Below are positions 1,481 through 58,042 of a DNA stretch of 64,000 nucleotides, piece by piece (within the stretch, counting starts at the first letter, position 1; every line of letters starts with the position of its first letter). Both the position numbers and the translations under genes were made by a program. The notes below the pieces were generated by a model. That model was not told the origin of the DNA. It did no database searches and saw nothing but the letters and a program-made list of their open reading frames with translations. The stretch is from Herbaspirillum sp. alder98 (lineage in GTDB: Bacteria; Pseudomonadota; Gammaproteobacteria; Burkholderiales; Burkholderiaceae_D): NCBI RefSeq assembly GCF_020179755.1, contig NZ_JAIUCY010000001.1:186001-250000 (forward strand). The letters run 5' to 3'.

Positions 1481-3733
1481 TTACTGCCGCTTGGCCTCGA
1501 TCACGCCCTTCACATCACGAATAACCGTCAATGCTTTCTGCAGTTGTTCGGTCGAACCGATCTCGGCGGTGAAGGCCATGCGCGCATGGCCCTTTGCACT
1601 TTGCGTGCTCACACCAATCACGTTGATCTTGTCGCGCAAGAAGATATCAGAAATATCGCGCAGCAGCCCCTGTCGATCGCTGGCCAGCACAAAAATATCG
1701 ACCGGATAGACCGTATCGCGCGCCGGCGAACCCCAGGTGGTCTGAATGATCCGCTCCGGCGCCTGCGCACTCATCTCGGCAAAGTTCTTGCAATTCATGC
1801 GATGAATCGAGACGCCCTTGCCGCGCGTGACGAAACCGGCAATCACATCCGGCGGCGCCGGCTTGCAGCAGCGCGCCAGTTGCGTCAGCAAACCGTCGGT
1901 GCCCACCACCAGCACGCCTGACTTGGCCCCCTGCACAATACTGGAGGCGCGACTCTTGCGGGTAATCGCCGCCTCGTCGTCGACCTCGGGCTTCCTGGCT
2001 TCGGCATCATGCAGCGCCTGTTCGACATGGCGCAGGCTGAATTCGTCCTTGCCCAGCGACAGGCAAAGATCGTCGACCTTGCCAAAGCCCAGTTTCTGGG
2101 CCAGCTCTTCCAGATTGACGGCGGTCTTGCCCTCGCGCTGCAAGGTCTTTTCAAGCAGGCCGCGGCCGACCGAGAGGGTTTCCTGCTGCTCGATGGCGTT
2201 GAACCAGGCGCGCACCTTGGAGCGGGTCCGGCTGCTGGTGGCGTAGCCAGGGCTGAGCCAGTCGCGCGAAGGCCCTACCCCGGGGCCGCTCTTGACGGTG
2301 ATGATGTCGACCGTCTGGCCATTCTTGAGTGGGGTATTGAGCGGCACCATCACGCCATCCACCCGCGCGCCGCGGCAGCGATGACCGACATCGCTGTGCA
2401 GGTGATACGCAAAATCGATCGGCGTGGCGCCGCTGGGCAATTCGATCACCCGCGCCTGCGGGGTGAGCACATAGATGCGCTCGTCCAGCGCGGCGGCCTT
2501 GAGTTTTTCGGCCAGGTCGCGTCGCACCTCGCCCTCGTCGACCACGGCGTCGGTGACTTCGGTCTTCCATGCCAGCAGCTGGCGCAGCCAGGCAATCTTT
2601 TCGTCGTACTTCTGGGCGGCAAAATTGGAGCCGCCGCTTTCCTTGTAGCGCCAGTGCGCGGCCACGCCGTATTCGGCGAAATAATGCATCTCGTGCGTGC
2701 GCACCTGCACTTCGATGGCGCGACCGTCCTCGGCCATCACCACCGTATGCAGCGACTGGTAGCCGTTGGCCTTGGGACGCGATATATAGTCGTCGAACTC
2801 TTCGGGAATCGGGGTCCAGATGTCATGCACGATGCCCAGCACCGTGTAGCAGGTCTTGACGTCGCCCACGATCACCCGGAAAGCGCGCACGTCATAGAGC
2901 TCGGAAAAGTCGAGCGACTTGCCGCGCATCTTGTTCCAGATACTGTAGATGTGCTTCGGCCGGCCGCTGACTTCAGCCCGGATGTCGAGCGCCGCCAGCT
3001 CCGAGCGCAAGCGCGTGATGGCGTCGGCCACGAACTGTTCACGCTCGAGACGTTTCTCTTCGAGCATCTTGGCGATGCGCTTGTAGGTGGCCGGCTCCTG
3101 GAAGCGGAACGACAGGTCTTCCAGCTCCCACTTCAGTTGCCAGATCCCCAGGCGATTGGCCAACGGCGCATACAGCTCGAAGGTCTCGCGCGCATATTGG
3201 CGACTGGCGTCATTCTCCTGCTTGGTTTCGGCGAAGTAACGCAGCGTCGCCACCCGCGACGCCAGGCGCACCAGGACCACCCGCATGTCGGAAGCCATCG
3301 CCAGCAGCATCTTGCGCAATGTCTCGACCTGCGACGCGGCCTGCTGGGCGGCGTGCTTGCCGCGCAATACTTCTTGCTGCGGCGCCTGGAAGGTCAGGCT
3401 GTGAAAGCGCATCAACTGGCGCACGCCACCGACCAGGTCGGCAGTCTCTTTTCCGAAGCGCTCCTCGAGTTGCTCGTCGAACTCGGGGTGAATCATCTTG
3501 AGCTCGAACAGCAAGCCCGCCAGGCGAGTCTCGACATCGACATTGAGTGCCGTCAGTACCGTCACGACCGACAGCACGAACTGCAGCGCGTTCTGTCCGG
3601 ACGGAATCTGCCGCTCGGCATACAACGGCTCGAGCTCGGCCAGCGCCTTCTCGAGGCGCTCGGCCTCGGCGCTGCCAAGACCGGCGGTCAATGCGGCCAG
3701 GCCTTCGCCCTGGGTGCCTGCTACCGAAACCAT
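1481..3733 (-). CDS. relA: RelA, (p)ppGpp synthetase
   Basis: RelA makes the stringent-response alarmone (p)ppGpp from ATP and GDP/GTP on stalled ribosomes. The protein is 750 residues. Residues 45-200 match the hydrolase domain, but the metal-binding HD/ED signature is absent (ELKMIHPE where HDxxED is expected), so hydrolysis should be lost. The synthetase domain (about 245-360) carries the EFDD signature (residues 312-315) typical of RelA rather than the RxKD form of SpoT. A TGS domain (418-480) and a C-terminal ACT/RRM region follow. The start at 3733 has AGAAG upstream and lies only 4 bases after the ridA stop, so the two are cotranscribed. A separate SpoT hydrolase should exist elsewhere. 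Confidence 0.95.
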   Translation of the reverse strand: MVSVAGTQGEGLAALTAGLGSAEAERLEKALAELEPLYAERQIPSGQNALQFVLSVVTVLTALNVDVETRLAGLLFELKMIHPEFDEQLEERFGKETADLVGGVRQLMRFHSLTFQAPQQEVLRGKHAAQQAASQVETLRKMLLAMASDMRVVLVRLASRVATLRYFAETKQENDASRQYARETFELYAPLANRLGIWQLKWELEDLSFRFQEPATYKRIAKMLEEKRLEREQFVADAITRLRSELAALDIRAEVSGRPKHIYSIWNKMRGKSLDFSELYDVRAFRVIVGDVKTCYTVLGIVHDIWTPIPEEFDDYISRPKANGYQSLHTVVMAEDGRAIEVQVRTHEMHYFAEYGVAAHWRYKESGGSNFAAQKYDEKIAWLRQLLAWKTEVTDAVVDEGEVRRDLAEKLKAAALDERIYVLTPQARVIELPSGATPIDFAYHLHSDVGHRCRGARVDGVMVPLNTPLKNGQTVDIITVKSGPGVGPSRDWLSPGYATSSRTRSKVRAWFNAIEQQETLSVGRGLLEKTLQREGKTAVNLEELAQKLGFGKVDDLCLSLGKDEFSLRHVEQALHDAEARKPEVDDEAAITRKSRASSIVQGAKSGVLVVGTDGLLTQLARCCKPAPPDVIAGFVTRGKGVSIHRMNCKNFAEMSAQAPERIIQTTWGSPARDTVYPVDIFVLASDRQGLLRDISDIFLRDKINVIGVSTQSAKGHARMAFTAEIGSTEQLQKALTVIRDVKGVIEAKRQ

Positions 3734-3737
3734 GGGC

Positions 3738-4088
3738 TTACTTCTGGGCCGCGACGATGATAATCTCGACCAGCAGCTCCGGACGGGCCAGCTTGGATTC
3801 GACAGTGGCACGCGGCGGCGCATTGCCATCGGCCACCCAGCTATCCCAGACCGTATTCATGCCGGCGAAGTCCTTGACGTCGGACAGATAGATCTGGCAC
3901 GACAGGATCCGGCTCTTGTCGCTGCCGGCCTCGGCCAGCAGGCGATCGACATGCCCCAGCACCTCACGGGTCTGGCCTTCGATGTTCTGCGTGGTGTCTT
4001 CGGCGATCTGGCCGGCCAGATAGACCGTACCGTTATGGATCGCCACTTCGGAGAGGCGCTTGCCGACGTGCAGACGTTGTACTGACAT
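3738..4088 (-). CDS. ridA: RidA family enamine/imine deaminase
   Basis: This is a 116-residue member of the YjgF/YER057c/UK114 family. Family members hydrolyse reactive enamine/imine intermediates of PLP enzymes, or act on related substrates. Family features include the YLAGQIAEDT strand and the APPRATVESKLARPELLVEI C-terminal block with the conserved arginine of the active site. The ATG at 4088 gives the usual family length; a longer in-frame extension is rejected. It is the first gene of a two-gene unit with relA, separated by 4 bases. The substrate cannot be told from sequence, and the symbol refers to the family. Confidence 0.85.
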   Translation of the reverse strand: MSVQRLHVGKRLSEVAIHNGTVYLAGQIAEDTTQNIEGQTREVLGHVDRLLAEAGSDKSRILSCQIYLSDVKDFAGMNTVWDSWVADGNAPPRATVESKLARPELLVEIIIVAAQK

Positions 4089-4149: not shown

Positions 4150-5016
4150 TCAACCCAGCAGGAACTTCTTCGCCACCTCGATCTGGGGCGCGTGCATGAA
4201 GGTGGGCGCATGCCCGACGTCGGGCAATTCCACCAGCGTGGCGCGCGGCCCGCGCTGGGTCATCTGCTGCGCGGTCTCCGGCAGCAGCAGGTCGGACTGC
4301 GCGCCGCGCACCAGCAGGGTCGGACAGCGCAACGCATCGTAAGCGGCCCACAGCATCTGCTCGCCGGCGCTGGCCGCCTCGGGCGTAGACAGCTTGAAGG
4401 GCAGCGCCAGCGCCAGGTCGTAATGCCGGATCCACTGGCCCTGCGCGTTCTGGCGCAGCACATCGGCGGCCAGCTTGTGCCACTCTTCGTCGCTGTGCTG
4501 ACCAAAGCTGGCCGAGATGGTGCGGATGTACTGGGCCGCCTCGTCGAAGGTATCGAAGCGCACGTCCTGACCGATGTAGTCGCCGATACGCGCCAGCGCG
4601 GCGCCATTGATGGACGGACCGATATCGTTGAGCACCAGCTTGTGGATCGGGTTCTCGGGCATCGACGCCAGCACCATCCCGATCAGCCCGCCCATGGAAG
4701 TACCGAACCAGTCGACCAGTTCGGCATCGAGCCTGGCCAGCAGGGTGACCATGTCGCTGACGTATTGCGGAATGGTATAGAACTGCGGGTTCAACAGGCG
4801 CCCCGAGCGGCCACGGCCGACGATGTCCGGACACACCACCCGATAGGTATCGCAGAGCTCGCGCGCCAGCCGGTCGAAGTCGTCCGACACCCGGGTTACC
4901 CCGTGCACGCACACCAGCACATTAGGATTGCGCGGATCGCCCCATTCCTTGTAGGCCATGCTGTGCAGCCCGGCGGGAGAAATGCATTGCACCGTCTTCA
5001 CTACCGCTTCCGTCAT
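4150..5016 (-). CDS. Alpha/beta-fold hydrolase
   Basis: This is a 288-residue cytoplasmic alpha/beta hydrolase without signal peptide. It has an oxyanion-hole HG (VCVHGVTR), the nucleophile elbow GTSMGG, an acid in the RGAQSDLL strand and a C-terminal catalytic histidine in DVGHAP. Enzymes of this family cleave esters, lactones or C-C bonds, and the substrate is not predictable. The start at 5016 is chosen because the upstream in-frame residues look like intergenic translation. The gene ends 61 bases before ridA and may be in the same transcription unit. Confidence 0.85.
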   Translation of the reverse strand: MTEAVVKTVQCISPAGLHSMAYKEWGDPRNPNVLVCVHGVTRVSDDFDRLARELCDTYRVVCPDIVGRGRSGRLLNPQFYTIPQYVSDMVTLLARLDAELVDWFGTSMGGLIGMVLASMPENPIHKLVLNDIGPSINGAALARIGDYIGQDVRFDTFDEAAQYIRTISASFGQHSDEEWHKLAADVLRQNAQGQWIRHYDLALALPFKLSTPEAASAGEQMLWAAYDALRCPTLLVRGAQSDLLLPETAQQMTQRGPRATLVELPDVGHAPTFMHAPQIEVAKKFLLG

Positions 5017-5176: not shown

Positions 5177-5269
5177 TGGTGCCTGAGACCGGAATCGAAC
5201 CGGTACGCCCCTTTCCAGGTAAGCGGCGGATTTTAAGTCCGCTGTGTCTACCAATTTCACCACTCAGGC
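5177..5269 (-). tRNA. tRNA-Leu (anticodon UAA)
   Basis: Class II tRNA on the minus strand. Acceptor GCCTGAG pairs with CTCAGGC, then A and an encoded CCA. The anticodon stem GCGGA/TCCGC encloses CTTAAAA, giving TAA. A long variable arm follows. Total length is 93 nt with CCA. A minus-strand open frame starting at 5263 (MVKLVDTADLKS...) is an artefact of translating this tRNA. Confidence 0.95.
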
Positions 5270-5382: not shown

Positions 5383-6093
5383 TCAGCCATTGCCCTCCAC
5401 CCGATTGCGACCGCCCCGCTTGGCGCGATAAAGCCCTTCGTCGGCGCGCGCATAGGCGCTTTCGAAGTCACCTCCTGCGGCGCTCCATGAGACGCCGAAG
5501 CTGGCCGTTACCGGGTGCATCGGCAAGCATGCGAAGGGTTCGCCGATGATGACCTGGCGGATGTTTTCTGCAGCCTGCACCGCCGCTTCCAGCGGCATGT
5601 CGGCCAGCAGCACCGAGAATTCCTCGCCACCGACGCGACCGATCAAGCCTTCACCCTGCAAGCCCTGGCGCAGTCGCTGGACCAGTTCGCGAATCACGGC
5701 GTCGCCGGCGGGATGGCCAAACTCGTCGTTGATGCGCTTGAAGAAATCGATGTCGAGCACGATCAACGACAGCGCCGACTCTTCGAGTATGCTGCGCGCC
5801 GAATCAAACACCGCACCGCGATTAAGGGCGCCGGTCAGATTGTCGTGGCGCGCCTTGTAGTCCAGCTCGTCGCTCAACTGCTGCAGCCGCGCATTGAGCG
5901 CATTGAGTTCGCGCTCGGTGCGGTCGCTGCGCGAAATCAGGCGGCGGCTCTGACGCATCAGTTGACCGTAATTCTGCACCAGTTGCTCAAGCGCATCGCG
6001 ATAGTGCACGACGTCAGCGGCCGGGCTGTCAAGCACCTGACTGGCCCGCGCCAGCGCGGCAGCTTCAGCTTCGAAGAGGTCGACGTCGCTCAT
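5383..6093 (-). CDS. siaD: SiaD-like diguanylate cyclase
   Basis: This 236-residue cytoplasmic protein has a helical N-terminus (about 1-80, probable coiled coil) and a GGDEF domain that makes c-di-GMP from two GTP. The signature is GGEEF at 155-159, with the metal ligand D114 in VLDIDFF. The product-inhibition RxxD site upstream of GGEEF is absent (QGEG at that position). In Pseudomonas aeruginosa the SiaD cyclase is activated by binding unphosphorylated SiaC, and the same arrangement is inferred here because siaC lies directly upstream. The start codon overlaps the siaC stop by one base (TGATG), implying translational coupling. Confidence 0.85.
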   Translation of the reverse strand: MSDVDLFEAEAAALARASQVLDSPAADVVHYRDALEQLVQNYGQLMRQSRRLISRSDRTERELNALNARLQQLSDELDYKARHDNLTGALNRGAVFDSARSILEESALSLIVLDIDFFKRINDEFGHPAGDAVIRELVQRLRQGLQGEGLIGRVGGEEFSVLLADMPLEAAVQAAENIRQVIIGEPFACLPMHPVTASFGVSWSAAGGDFESAYARADEGLYRAKRGGRNRVEGNG

Positions 6094-6482
6094 CAGCTGG
6101 TTACCGCATGGTCATGAAACACCAGGTCGGCAAAGTCTTCCTTCAACTCCTGGCCGAACTCGAAGATGGTGTCGTCTTCTTCGTCGTGATACCAGTTGAG
6201 AATCACTTCGGTACCGGCTTCGGCTTTTTCGTTGAGCGCGTCGAACAACGAAAACAGCATCTTGGTGCTGGAACTGTTGAAATAGGCCAATGCCACGTTG
6301 ACCGTAATGGGTGACGCCACTTCATCCTGCGCCAGGAAGGCGCGCAAGGTCGAGATGATGTCGCCCCAGAACTGCGCGGCGTTCTCGGGGTATGACTCAC
6401 CCTTGAGCGAGAGAATCCGTTCTTCGAAGCGAAAATCGACCTCGGGAGAACTGGCACTGGCGGCGATAAATAAGTTATCCAT
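6093..6482 (-). CDS. siaC: SiaC-like regulatory phosphoprotein (DUF1987)
   Basis: This 129-residue protein matches the SiaC/DUF1987 family in length, in the FWGDII and LAYFNSSSTK blocks, and in context. In Pseudomonas, SiaC is phosphorylated on a threonine by SiaB and dephosphorylated by SiaA, and its unphosphorylated form binds and activates SiaD. Thr73 in the NSSSTK segment is the likely phosphosite by position; that residue choice is an inference. The gene sits between siaB (48 bases upstream) and siaD (1-base overlap). Confidence 0.85.
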   Translation of the reverse strand: MDNLFIAASASSPEVDFRFEERILSLKGESYPENAAQFWGDIISTLRAFLAQDEVASPITVNVALAYFNSSSTKMLFSLFDALNEKAEAGTEVILNWYHDEEDDTIFEFGQELKEDFADLVFHDHAVTS

Positions 6483-6529
6483 AGACTCGATCAGAAAGCT
6501 AGACGGGCCTGCATGGTAAGCCCTTTCTT

Positions 6530-7090
6530 TTAAATGGTGGCGCGCAGATAGAACATCGAACTGCCATCCGTGCCCGGTGCCGAAAACTCGAAATCAAGCG
6601 GCGCGCTTGCGTCCCGCGCCATCGTCAGCAGCCCCAACCCGGCGCCCTTGCTGTCGGCCGGCGTCTCCGAGCGCAGGGTTTCCTTGTAGGCCGACTTGAT
6701 TTCATCCATCGTCAGCGAACGCAGATGCGCCAGTTTGGCGCGCAGGCGTTCGGCAATCTCGGCATTGACCGGATTGGCGCAATGCAGGTAATAACGATCA
6801 TCGGTGTGCGAGATGAACACCGCGCCGTGGCGCATCGAAGTCTCGCCCTGCCCTTCCTTCTGGTACGAATCGGCCGAGTAATGCACGATGTTCTGGGCCA
6901 TTTCGATGAAGGACGAAAACAGCTTGCGACGCGTCTGCGCCACCGCGCCGGTCTGCTCCACGCGCAGCTTGACGGCGTCGGCCATGGCCGCAATGATGCT
7001 CTGAGAAAAATAACCGACGTAATAGAAGATCACGTCGCGCCGCTCCACGTAGCTATGGAAATCGGCCCATTCCTGTTCAATGCCGCTCAT
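6530..7090 (-). CDS. siaB: SiaB-like threonine kinase (DUF6272)
   Basis: This 186-residue protein resembles SiaB family kinases. It has a GHKL-like fold, with the helix FIEMAQNIVHYSADS carrying the ATP-binding Asn and a glycine-rich GAGLGLLTMAR box. In Pseudomonas the kinase phosphorylates SiaC and so holds the SiaD cyclase inactive. The start at 7090 overlaps the stop of the phosphatase gene by four bases (ATGA), indicating one operon. Because the fold resembles anti-sigma kinases of the SpoIIAB type, it could have been called an anti-sigma factor; the siaC neighbour decides the assignment. Confidence 0.8.
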   Translation of the reverse strand: MSGIEQEWADFHSYVERRDVIFYYVGYFSQSIIAAMADAVKLRVEQTGAVAQTRRKLFSSFIEMAQNIVHYSADSYQKEGQGETSMRHGAVFISHTDDRYYLHCANPVNAEIAERLRAKLAHLRSLTMDEIKSAYKETLRSETPADSKGAGLGLLTMARDASAPLDFEFSAPGTDGSSMFYLRATI

Positions 7091-8439
7091 CTTGATTGCT
7101 CGCTTTGGCCAGTGGAGGTCGACTCCACACGGCATCCAAAAAACGTGACGTCGTCACGACGACGCTGCTGCGCCTGGTAAGTCGAATACGCTGCCATGAC
7201 CTCGCGCCCCAGCTCGGCCATCGGCAGTGCACGATGGGCCAGCAACGCCTGGCGCAGGCGCTGCTTGCCGAACGCGATGTGCTTGGGGCCGCCGATCTGG
7301 TCGATAACGCCGTCGCTGCACACCACGATCATGGCGTCCTGCGCCAATGCGATGGTGCGGCTGCTCCAGGTCATGTCATCGGTGGTGTCGACATAGCCCA
7401 GGCCGACGCGCTCGCCATCGACCGTTTGTACATTGTCCTGTCCGGGCTCGAGCACGAACAGCGACATCTTGGCATTGGCCGTGGTCAGGCTGCGGGTCTC
7501 GGCCTGGTACCAGAAGAAACAGGCATCCATGCCATCGTCGGATTCGGAAGGCTTGTCGGCGCCGGCGTGCTGTCCCAGCACCCGCTTCATGGCGCGATTG
7601 ACTTCGCCCATCAGTCGCGCCGGATCGCGCGGCCCGCATTGCTCGATGGCCTGCTTCAGGCAGGACGAGGCGATCAGGGTCAGGAAGGCACCCGGCACGC
7701 CATGCCCGGTGCAGTCGGCAACGGCGGCGAACCAACCATCGGCGTGCTGCTCGAAATGATAGAAGTCGCCGCCGACGACATCGCGCGGCTCCCATACCAG
7801 GCAAGCGTCGGCCAGCGCCGCCGACATCGCGCTGCGCGAAGTGCTCAGCATGGCGCGCTGGATCACGCTGGCGTAATCGATGCTCTGCATCACCTGCCGG
7901 TTCTTCTCGACCTGCAGGCTCACCAGTTCGCGCATCAGCGCCAGGCCGGACCCCAATCCGGCAAGACGCCCTTCTTCCACGATCAGGAAACCGTCGGCCA
8001 GGGTCTTGTCACCGGAGGCCACCGCCAGCGCACCCAGCGTTTCGATGGGGGTGCCGACATCGACGATCAGCGGATCCTTGTCCATGAAGGCGATGCAGCT
8101 CTTGCGTTCGTACAGTTCGCGGTGATACGGCTTGGACATCTGCGACATGAAGATATGCCGGCTGATCAATCCGATCGGACGATCCTGCTCGACCACGGGC
8201 AGGCTCACCAGCTCGCGATGCTGCCCGAATATCTCCAGCACCCGCGCATTGTTCTCGTCGAACGGGACGACGGGAACACTGACCGCCAGGTTGCCGGCAG
8301 TTGGCTGGTAGATGTGGGAGCCCCTGGTCGGGGCAAGACTGAAAGGGCTGTTCACCGTGCTCGTACCCGCGTCATGATTTTGATCAGTCGCGGATTGTAT
8401 GCAACCCGTATGACAACAATGTGACGCGGCCGTAGCCAT
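7087..8439 (-). CDS. siaA: SiaA-like PP2C phosphatase with N-terminal CBS pair
   Basis: The 450-residue protein ends in a SpoIIE/PP2C phosphatase domain (about 190-440) with metal-site motifs VVGGDFYHF (221-229) and DCTGHGVPGAF (242-252). Its expected job is to dephosphorylate SiaC and switch on the cyclase. The Pseudomonas SiaA sensor is a membrane protein with a HAMP region. This one has no membrane segment and instead carries a CBS-pair module at about 47-175, related to the one in the EAL-CBS-GGDEF protein at 56162. Adenosine nucleotides are usual CBS ligands, so a cytoplasmic cue is inferred. The start is uncertain: neither the ATG at 8439 nor an in-frame GTG at 8355 has a good ribosome binding site. 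Confidence 0.82.
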   Translation of the reverse strand: MATAASHCCHTGCIQSATDQNHDAGTSTVNSPFSLAPTRGSHIYQPTAGNLAVSVPVVPFDENNARVLEIFGQHRELVSLPVVEQDRPIGLISRHIFMSQMSKPYHRELYERKSCIAFMDKDPLIVDVGTPIETLGALAVASGDKTLADGFLIVEEGRLAGLGSGLALMRELVSLQVEKNRQVMQSIDYASVIQRAMLSTSRSAMSAALADACLVWEPRDVVGGDFYHFEQHADGWFAAVADCTGHGVPGAFLTLIASSCLKQAIEQCGPRDPARLMGEVNRAMKRVLGQHAGADKPSESDDGMDACFFWYQAETRSLTTANAKMSLFVLEPGQDNVQTVDGERVGLGYVDTTDDMTWSSRTIALAQDAMIVVCSDGVIDQIGGPKHIAFGKQRLRQALLAHRALPMAELGREVMAAYSTYQAQQRRRDDVTFFGCRVESTSTGQSEQSR

Positions 8440-56161: not shown

Positions 56162-58042
56162 ATGGCCCCTCTTTCCAACGCTCAATTCCCGCTCGATGGT
56201 CTGTCTGCCGAGCTATTCGCCCGTTCCCACGGCGAACTGCCGCCTGACACCGACGACCCGATGCTGGCCCTGCTCCACGAGATCATCGCCCAGCGCAAGT
56301 TGTCGGCCCTGTTCCAGCCCATCGTGCGCATGCGCAACGGCGAGATCCTGGGCTATGAAGGCCTGATCCGGGGGCCCTCCAATACCGCGCTGCATTCGCC
56401 GCTGGCCCTGTTCAAGGTGGCGCGCGCGCACAACCTGTCGGTACAGATGGAATACCTGTGCCGCCACATCGTGCTGGCGCGTTTCGCCCAGTCGGGGTTG
56501 CCGGGCAATCTGTTCCTCAACGTCACCCCTGGCGCGCTGATGCAACCCGAGGCGATCCAGGGCGAGACGCTGCGTTACCTGGAGCGCCTGGGCATCAACC
56601 CGCAGCGCATCATCATCGAACTGACCGAGAACGAGCCGACCTACGACTATGCGTTGTTGCGCAACGCCGCGATGCATTACCGCGACATGGGGTTCCAGAT
56701 CGCCATCGACGATCTCGGCGAGGGGTTTTCCAGCCTGCGCCTGTGGTCCGAGCTGCAGCCCGAATACGTCAAGATCGACATGCACTTCGTGCAGGGCATC
56801 AACCACGACCCCATGAAACTGCAGTTCGTGCGCTCGATCCAGGAAATCGCCGAGAAATCGGGCTCCATCGTGATCGCCGAGGGCATCGAATCGCAGGCCG
56901 AGCTGCTCACCATCCGCGATCTCGGCATCGCCTGCGGCCAGGGCTACCACATCGGCCGCCCGCTGGCCGACCCGCCCACCGCCATCTCGGACGACGTCAC
57001 CAAGACCCTGCGCCGCGACAAGGTGCCGCTGGCGGCGCAGAAGTACGGCCCGGGCAAGGGCCGCGCCACCGTCTTCAAGCTGCTGCGCGAAACCCGCTAC
57101 GTCAGCCCCGAGGTGAGCAACGACCAGGTCTACAGCATGTTCGTCAACGACCCCGAGCTGCAGGCGCTGCCGGTGGTCAGCAATGGCTTGCCGATCGGCC
57201 TGATCAACCGCTACAGCATGGTCGAGCGCTTTGCCCGCCTGTACGGGCGCGAGTTGTACGGCAAGAAGTCGTGCGCCTTCTTCATGGACCCGAGCCCGAT
57301 CATCACCGAGCAAGACACCAGCCTGCAGGACCTGTCCAACCTGCTGGTGCACGCCGAGTCGCATCACCTGTCGAATGGCTTCATCATCACCGATCGCGGC
57401 CAGTATGTCGGCCTGGGCACCGGCCACGACCTGCTGCGCGAGATCACGCAGATGCAGATGGATGCGGCGCGCCATGCCAATCCGCTGACCCAGCTGCCGG
57501 GCAACGTGCCGATCAACGACCATATCGAATACCTGCTGCAGAGCGGCGTCGAATTCTGCATCTGCTATTGCGACCTCGACCATTTCAAGCCCTTCAACGA
57601 CGTCTACGGCTATCGCAAGGGCGACGACATGATCCAGCTCACCGGACGCGTACTGCAACAGGCGTGCGACCCCGATCTCGACTTCATCGGCCATATCGGC
57701 GGCGATGACTTCCTGATCATGTTCCAGAGCGAAGACTGGGAAAAACGCTGCCGCACCCTGCTCGACAACTTCGCCGTCGAGTCGGCCGCCTGCTATTACG
57801 ACGAGGACCGCCTGCGCGGCGGCTATCACTCGGAAGACCGCCAGGGCAACCGGGTGCTGCATCCGCTGGTGGGGGTGTCGCTGGGCGCGGTCAAGATCGA
57901 GCCATCGCAGTATTCGTCGCCGCACCAGATCGCCTCGGCCGCCACCCGCGCCAAGAAGCAGGCCAAGAAAATCGTCGGCAACAGCCTGTTCATCGAGCGC
58001 CGCATTCCGACCACGTTCTCCTGGGCCATCAAGGAGGCCTAA
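56162..58042 (+). CDS. EAL-CBS-GGDEF c-di-GMP protein
   Basis: The 626-residue cytoplasmic protein has an N-terminal EAL domain (about 35-270), a CBS pair (about 305-432) and a C-terminal GGDEF domain (about 450-600). In the EAL domain the signature reads EGL (66-68), but the metal and catalytic residues are kept: E153 and N157 in ELTEN, D183/D184 in IDDLGEGFS, and E240 in AEGIES. Phosphodiesterase activity is therefore likely. The GGDEF motif is GGDDF (513-517) without an RxxD site, so it may bind GTP or act weakly. The CBS module parallels that of the SiaA-like phosphatase. It is a single gene with its own terminator. Confidence 0.88.
   Translation: MAPLSNAQFPLDGLSAELFARSHGELPPDTDDPMLALLHEIIAQRKLSALFQPIVRMRNGEILGYEGLIRGPSNTALHSPLALFKVARAHNLSVQMEYLCRHIVLARFAQSGLPGNLFLNVTPGALMQPEAIQGETLRYLERLGINPQRIIIELTENEPTYDYALLRNAAMHYRDMGFQIAIDDLGEGFSSLRLWSELQPEYVKIDMHFVQGINHDPMKLQFVRSIQEIAEKSGSIVIAEGIESQAELLTIRDLGIACGQGYHIGRPLADPPTAISDDVTKTLRRDKVPLAAQKYGPGKGRATVFKLLRETRYVSPEVSNDQVYSMFVNDPELQALPVVSNGLPIGLINRYSMVERFARLYGRELYGKKSCAFFMDPSPIITEQDTSLQDLSNLLVHAESHHLSNGFIITDRGQYVGLGTGHDLLREITQMQMDAARHANPLTQLPGNVPINDHIEYLLQSGVEFCICYCDLDHFKPFNDVYGYRKGDDMIQLTGRVLQQACDPDLDFIGHIGGDDFLIMFQSEDWEKRCRTLLDNFAVESAACYYDEDRLRGGYHSEDRQGNRVLHPLVGVSLGAVKIEPSQYSSPHQIASAATRAKKQAKKIVGNSLFIERRIPTTFSWAIKEA

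Follow-up and report, generated by a model that had tools for sequence, protein, structure and literature searches.

A Sia-type operon for a probable cytoplasmic switch with a CBS-pair phosphatase in Herbaspirillum sp. alder98, and a putative SiaC-docking module found in several classes of signalling enzymes

We analysed a 64,000-nucleotide stretch of the genome of Herbaspirillum sp. alder98 (contig NZ_JAIUCY010000001.1, positions 186,001 to 250,000), hereafter called the window, and in particular an operon of four genes related to the siaABCD genes of Pseudomonas aeruginosa: a phosphatase, a kinase, a small phosphoprotein and a diguanylate cyclase (see the Table). The phosphatase carries a pair of CBS repeats where SiaA has a membrane-spanning HAMP sensor. 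The best explanation of the operon, which we hold to be highly likely, is a cytoplasmic partner switch of the Sia type which sets the level of cyclic di-GMP (c-di-GMP). The most surprising result is that the short stretch by which the cyclase presumably docks on SiaC is found again in front of quite different signalling enzymes.

The initial annotation, made from the sequence alone, had given the gene order as phosphatase, kinase, SiaC-like protein and cyclase, and the four minus-strand genes do follow each other in this order. It had also described overlapping ends, which is right for siaA and siaB (ATGA) and for siaC and the cyclase gene (TGATG), whereas siaB and siaC lie 47 bases apart. The kinase and the phosphoprotein belong to the SiaB and DUF1987 families, as had been supposed: the SiaB-family kinase model NF038262 gives 208.9 bits (cut-off 85) and PF09345 gives 136.4 bits (cut-off 24.5). 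Residues 13-186 of SiaB align with chain A of the entry 6kko, which we take to be SiaB, the boxes IEMxQN and GAGLGLL being common to both, and residues 1-118 of SiaC align with chain C of the same entry. The GGDEF domain of the cyclase reaches 110.3 bits with Pfam. The SpoIIE/PP2C domain expected in the phosphatase was found at residues 234-438 (86.1 bits, above the Pfam cut-off). The sole sequence match of the phosphatase in the PDB at E 0.001 is 6k4e, the crystal structure of the PP2C domain of P. aeruginosa SiaA (E 2.6e-47), and the PP2C part of the predicted model resembles this structure with Z 32.9 over 245 residues. Asp 225, 242, 376 and 430, presumably the metal-binding residues by analogy, are invariant in 45 aligned rows. 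Pfam matches of operon proteins to DUF6130 and MshEN stayed under the cut-off and were disregarded. The viral contigs searched held no relative of the phosphatase.

The CBS pair claimed for the N-terminus of the phosphatase was recovered both by profiles and by predicted structure. With the full protein, one repeat at residues 55-96 exceeds the Pfam cut-off (28.8 bits); for residues 45-180 alone the score is 33.8 bits, and a lax threshold (E 10) shows two CBS stretches there; at this threshold CBS is matched in 20 of 23 relatives as well. A structure search with the whole phosphatase was uninformative on this part, because the PP2C domain filled the list, and the CBS part was therefore folded alone; the AlphaFold confidence score (predicted local distance difference test) is 84.8 for the whole phosphatase and 90.2 for residues 45-180 alone. 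From end to end, the isolated part resembles CBS pairs of known structure, the best being AcuB (Z 16.2, root-mean-square deviation 2.8, 127 residues). Hence the second repeat, for which Pfam is weaker, is better settled by the predicted fold. In the AlphaFold model, the helix formed by residues 165-208 runs continuously from the CBS pair into the PP2C domain. A crude hydropathy measure detected no membrane segment in the phosphatase, the highest value over 19 residues being 1.41 for a threshold of 1.7, which agrees with the initial annotation. In P. aeruginosa, by contrast, SiaA has recently been reported to act as a sensor of membrane perturbation or stress for which its N-terminal membrane part is needed (PMC12834913), so that the difference between the two is sharper than the initial annotation supposed. 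Since the phosphatase of the window has no membrane segment, its cue is probably cytoplasmic; this part of the earlier proposal on the cue stood.

The other part, namely that the cue is adenylate or a similar molecule, was weakened. Binding of AMP, ADP or ATP is common among CBS pairs, and the best structural matches of our CBS pair include AcuB and DarB with nucleotides, which is a similarity of fold only. We aligned 115 distinct relatives, out of 137 CBS-labelled phosphatases, after removing duplicates over the last 380 residues and excluding the locus L229. From P88 to L124 there is little variation. At position 96, the place in repeat one of the canonical, ribose-binding Asp (the register comes from a profile alignment to 5g5r), 113 of the 115 have Ile; at position 167, in repeat two, only 15 of the 115 have Asp. 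R94, by contrast, is Arg in all 115, and when other proteins with this kind of CBS pair are added, the 75 rows of the resulting set all have it. On these alignments, the pair does not have the canonical adenine-nucleotide motif with its Asp, and the residues at positions 96 and 167 together with the invariant R94 lead us to expect that the ligand is not an adenosine held in the customary mode. Adenylate sensing was thus dropped as the default. A minor but real possibility is that the output side works as we propose below while the CBS pair binds adenylate in a non-canonical manner: the predicted fold is that of a CBS pair and nucleotide binding without the full motif occurs in some CBS pairs, but the signature Asp is gone from repeat one and is not conserved in repeat two.

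The cyclase differs from SiaD in two respects. First, the site RxxD upstream of GGEEF, absent according to the initial annotation, is indeed replaced by QGEG. We kept 132 cyclases, leaving out duplicates and four long rows (L090, L091, L092 and L220): RxxD is present in none of the 112 distinct cyclases from loci of the CBS type, as against 16 of the 17 from loci of the other type, and in two of the three from loci without a visible phosphatase. Nine further CBS-type cyclases, from a separate draw, lack it too. Hence the cyclase of the window should not inhibit itself through that site. Second, in the solved SiaC-SiaD complex of P. aeruginosa, PMC8457831 describes a contact of SiaC Thr68 with S82 and Q86 of SiaD, and a second similar motif at S50/Q54. 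We mapped these sites onto 7e6g as ISDRYQ (S82/Q86) and ISDGFQ (S50/Q54). The cyclase of the window does not have these two motifs but a single one, and exactly one is found in 107 of the 112 distinct CBS-type cyclases (RSDRAE in 69, RSDRTE in 30). Among the 17 cyclases of the other type, ten have two motifs, one has three (one of them spurious by eye), three have one and three have none.

The phosphoprotein shows a corresponding substitution. Thr68, the phosphosite of P. aeruginosa SiaC, is not found; Ser70 stands in its place, and it is most likely the phosphosite. The motif is NSSS or NSAS in all 137 CBS-labelled loci (the locus sets overlap and share genomes). Among the 23 loci then labelled "other", 14 have NTSS, eight have an NSS-type motif (one being L229, in reality of the CBS type) and one has no match, so that a Ser at this site is not unique to the CBS type.

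The two types are separated by the phylogeny of their phosphatase. In a tree of the PP2C domain (61 of 160 rows left after a similarity filter), all 42 CBS-type rows lie on one side of a branch of length 1.85 with 100/100 support. The trees of SiaB (58 rows, Shimodaira-Hasegawa approximate likelihood-ratio test 100) and of the cyclase (55 rows, 99) agree with this split, with one change of type each. In Massilia sp. Root418 (L229:4174-5412), a frameshift divides the siaA-type phosphatase gene into two frames; for this reason the locus L229 was relabelled as CBS by hand in the cyclase counts and in the PP2C and SiaC trees.

We infer the following scheme, its biochemical steps, phosphosite and ligand included, from parts, families, missing sites and a conserved docking motif which are observed in the sequences or in the predicted fold. 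SiaB would phosphorylate SiaC, most likely at Ser70, and thereby hold it off the cyclase. The CBS pair would gain or lose an intracellular ligand, and the continuous helix would relay the change to the PP2C domain, which would dephosphorylate SiaC. Free SiaC would bind the SDRTE docking motif on the N-terminal stalk of the cyclase and assemble an active dimer, so that c-di-GMP would rise. SiaB, phosphodiesterases and perhaps an EAL-CBS-GGDEF protein with the same kind of CBS pair, described below, would switch the output off.

The initial annotation had instead seen SiaC binding as the main brake on the cyclase. This does not agree with P. aeruginosa, where unphosphorylated SiaC activates SiaD and phosphorylation by SiaB prevents this (PMC8457831); nothing in the present data reverses the published direction. 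In that system, SiaC thus works as the accelerator of the cyclase, with SiaB as the brake. A switch with a CBS pair for sensing adenine nucleotides and with SiaC as the brake on the cyclase is improbable: the nucleotide-binding CBS pairs and structural matches mentioned above lend something to its first half, against which stand the residues at positions 96, 167 and 94, and its second half runs against the activation of SiaD by SiaC.

Several facts weigh against the cytoplasmic Sia-type switch as we describe it. All four operon proteins match the NCBIfam equivalog models of SiaA, SiaB, SiaC and SiaD, and all four remain under the cut-offs (190 bits for a cut-off of 700, 85.5 for 225, 88.8 for 150 and 138 for 290, respectively); judged by these scores, they are kin of the SiaABCD equivalogs and not the same proteins. 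The docking motif is absent from three of the 112 CBS-type cyclases and two others have a second, unlike match; moreover, the residue following SDRx is E and not Q. A tree of SiaC alone (61 rows) needs two changes of type, has a very long branch for L090 and does not place the types on clean sides. Four loci of Acidovorax (L168, L213, L224 and L216) have no adjacent siaB; in all three of these genomes that were searched (L168, L213, L224) siaB lies elsewhere, on another contig, and its profile match is interrupted within the frame. The direction in which SiaC acts is borrowed from P. aeruginosa, and no experiment on a member of the CBS type was found in the literature searched.

Compared with the SiaABCD system of P. 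aeruginosa (6k4e, 6kko, 7e6g; PMC7647112, PMC8457831 and PMC12834913), the operon of the window agrees in the order of the genes, in the PP2C domain, in the families of the SiaB kinase and of SiaC and in a GGEEF cyclase with a SiaC-docking stalk; it differs by the CBS pair in place of the membrane/HAMP sensor, by the Ser at the Thr68 site of SiaC, and by a cyclase with one docking motif instead of two and without RxxD. Phosphatases of the RsbU/SpoIIE type and the HsbA and BgrV switches feeding a cyclase (cited in PMC8457831) also combine a PP2C phosphatase, a kinase and a small phosphoprotein controlling an effector, and the fold of the PP2C part is common to them and the operon of the window. 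In contrast to these, SiaC is a DUF1987 protein, structurally related to STAS according to the same text, and docks on a defined stretch of its effector.

SiaC was found in 9 of 274 genomes of the class, 67 of 245 of the family and 30 of 34 of the genus. Of the 29 loci of the genus fetched besides the window, 28 hold a complete CBS-type operon; the exception, L121, has a Pseudomonas-type SiaC motif (YLNTSSVK) and no phosphatase within the stretch. This completeness, the intact family motifs and the near invariance of the CBS residues across genera make it very improbable indeed that the operon is a siaABCD copy in decay, as the missing RxxD, the docking motif fewer and the lost membrane region might suggest. 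We also surveyed sia operons by sensor type in named genomes, where at least 577 SiaC relatives exist: among the best 80, a choice which biases the survey towards the CBS type, 79 have CBS+PP2C and 75 have SiaB beside SiaC. A CBS-type SiaA is present in 53 of the 245 genomes of the family draw (rows above 185 bits), and the CBS type was seen in Herbaspirillum, Janthinobacterium, Duganella, Acidovorax, Cupriavidus, Bordetella and a number of Pseudomonas records. The CBS-type Sia switch is widespread and, as far as our searches show, undescribed; no description of it was found in the literature searched, where most subscription papers lay outside reach. A soluble sister type suggests that the same switch answers an intracellular cue in much of the group, and here it is paired with a cyclase without the usual feedback site.

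Both types occur in the genome G414 (L081, L141). In Bordetella genomosp. 13 (L268, L280), a CBS-type set is accompanied by a second set, Pseudomonas-like by its SiaC motif and RxxD; it was typed by these motifs alone, its sensor region lying outside the stretch seen. We read two such sets, from their sequences, as two parallel systems; since genomes of this kind carry both, insulation between the sets is a testable question. In Pseudothauera nasutitermitis (L192), a siaC gene and a cyclase gene have neither phosphatase nor kinase beside them, and the genome has three siaC genes.

The CBS sensor is one of several inputs, as the phosphatases vary among loci. For 60 loci of a draw across the phylum, crude rules assign to the phosphatase a hydrophobic segment in 26, a CBS pair in ten, a receiver-like domain in six and another soluble domain in one, while 17 loci have no phosphatase within 4 kb. 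The phosphatases with a receiver-like N-terminus (L312, L323, L325, L326, L337, L346), all soluble and of the SiaA type, are a third kind of input, and Pfam confirmed three of these six starts (L312, L337, L346).

Searched with a profile of SiaA CBS pairs, the genome yields a single further protein (121.2 bits), an EAL-CBS-GGDEF protein of 626 amino acids at 56162-58042 (+), with GGDDF in place of GGDEF. The two carriers of the subtype in this genome are thus both inside the window. CBS domains in c-di-GMP enzymes are already known: PMC12805831 describes two CBS domains between GGDEF and EAL in Bordetella DdpB. The EAL-CBS-GGDEF protein of the window shares the CBS-pair subtype with the phosphatase and differs in that the sensor is fused directly to the c-di-GMP enzyme domains, with no partner switch. 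The subtype is present in 31 of 229 genomes of the class (E 1e-6); of the 30 loci classified besides the window phosphatase, 20 encode EAL-CBS-GGDEF, three CBS-GGDEF-EAL and seven neither, most of these seven looking like histidine kinases by eye. In a CBS tree, the 41 rows from SiaA cluster together (99/92) amid the other carriers. The tree, built on 136 columns and with numerous long branches, does not single out a sister group for them; that the SiaA pair was recruited from EAL-CBS-GGDEF is still a guess, which we did not retain. A shared input for the making and breaking of c-di-GMP is possible.

These facts also bear on the idea that the CBS pair is a dimerisation or docking part and not a ligand sensor, for instance one through which the phosphatase would pair with the EAL-CBS-GGDEF protein and be steered by the state of that protein. 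Besides the proximity of the two carriers in the window, a second match to the subtype exists in 48 of the 53 family genomes with a CBS-type SiaA, and in L090-L092 (three genomes of one genus; for L091 the arrangement was confirmed by frames and Pfam) an EAL-CBS-GGDEF gene adjoins a set of CBS-siaA, siaB and siaC without siaD. A match is present, however, in 63 of the 192 other family genomes as well, these counts being uncorrected for kinship, so that the co-occurrence may reflect kinship only, and we consider the idea doubtful. At the place of siaD, L091 has a 230-amino-acid gene with no Pfam match (4302-4994, -).

We now turn to the docking stretch of the cyclase. The starting clue came from loci without a diguanylate cyclase, in which siaB and siaC are followed by a class III cyclase with SDRQE in its stalk. 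We built a profile from 109 N-termini of CBS-type cyclases only and searched 77 loci (60 of the 83 SiaC matches in a draw of 398 genomes of the phylum, and 17 earlier loci). It matched 45 of 2982 open reading frames (ORFs) at E 1e-4 or better, and no shuffled ORF at E 1. Of the 45, 41 start between 700 bases before and 400 bases after the end of siaC, on the same strand; the remaining four are also in siaC loci, one being the cyclase of L338, whose frame was taken too long, and three lying elsewhere in the stretch (L296, L314, L341). Among 1029 ORFs not chosen through SiaC, the cyclase of the window alone scored (E 4.6e-32; the next 0.12).

The 45 carriers comprise 18 GGDEF proteins, 14 HD-GYP proteins, eight class III cyclases, three histidine kinases, one PP2C phosphatase and one protein cut by a contig end; Pfam was used for four of the HD-GYP proteins, five of the class III cyclases, the three kinases and the PP2C phosphatase, and the rest were classed by motif or profile. 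The HD-GYP carriers, of about 690 amino acids, stand beside siaC in 13 of 14 cases (L341 is apart), and the four run through Pfam (L315, L322, L346, L341) each have GAF and HD_5. The class III cyclases with an N-terminal module follow siaC in L319, L321, L330, L339, L347, L086, L088 and L089; a cyclic-nucleotide-binding protein is encoded nearby in L088. The module precedes histidine kinase domains in L342, L310 and L296 (on the opposite strand in L296) and a second PP2C phosphatase in L066. Beside siaC there is no module match in 36 of the 77 loci, including the Pseudomonas-type L145 and L316. As a relative, SiaD, binds SiaC, the profile misses true partners in loci of this kind; others may have no module partner.

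A search of the 398 genomes, which we take to be the same draw as that of the SiaC search, with a 20-row alignment found the module in 61. Of these, 57 are among the 67 genomes with SiaC (hypergeometric p 2e-53, uncorrected for kinship), a coincidence which is partly circular because SiaC loci of the same draw supplied most rows of the alignment; the absence of the module from 327 of the 331 other genomes is not circular. The four module genomes without SiaC are three borderline matches (E 3.1e-4 to 8.0e-4) and one genome which is 88% complete (E 1.4e-7), and ten SiaC genomes have no module match. Several genomes have further copies on contigs other than that of siaC; in the genome of the window, the cyclase is the only carrier.

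A more far-reaching reading, which we hold to be probable, is that SiaC serves as a general adaptor. It would address a docking module (about 70 residues, core xSDRxE/Q) which can be transferred between proteins and which evolution would have joined to diguanylate cyclases, class III nucleotide cyclases, GAF-HD-GYP phosphodiesterases, histidine kinases and one PP2C phosphatase, each time on the N-terminal side, while SiaB and a phosphatase with an exchangeable sensor (membrane, CBS or receiver) would set its state. One switch would then control, depending on the species, the making or breaking of c-di-GMP, the making of cyclic AMP or cyclic GMP, or phosphorelays. DUF1987 proteins have been proposed in PMC8457831 to act on adjacent proteins, and the module provides a sequence tag for finding their partners.

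Table. Position of the operon genes and of their parts in the window
Feature	Positions	Strand	Remarks
CBS-PP2C phosphatase (SiaA-type)	7087..8439	-	450 amino acids from ATG; relatives suggest GTG codon 29 (8355), rather than 8439, as the likely real start
CBS pair, phosphatase residues 45-180	7900..8307	-	Profile matches and predicted fold
Continuous helix, phosphatase residues 165-208, from CBS pair to PP2C	7816..7947	-	AlphaFold model
SiaB-family protein kinase (DUF6272), 186 amino acids	6530..7090	-	Pfam/NCBIfam, alignment to 6kko
SiaC-family phosphoprotein (PF09345/DUF1987), 129 amino acids, Ser70 at the place of SiaC Thr68	6093..6482	-	
Diguanylate cyclase (SiaD-type), 236 amino acids, GGEEF, no RxxD	5383..6093	-	
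Presumed SiaC-docking module of the cyclase, about residues 4-75	5869..6084	-	Single motif RSDRTE at residues 55-60

Upstream of the operon, a scan of the minus strand from 8439 up to 9000 gave no promoter-like site. Immediately downstream lies a tRNA-Leu (taa) gene at 5177-5269 (-) and, a few genes further, a frame of 782 amino acids at 1481-3829 (-) which looks RelA/SpoT-like by eye.

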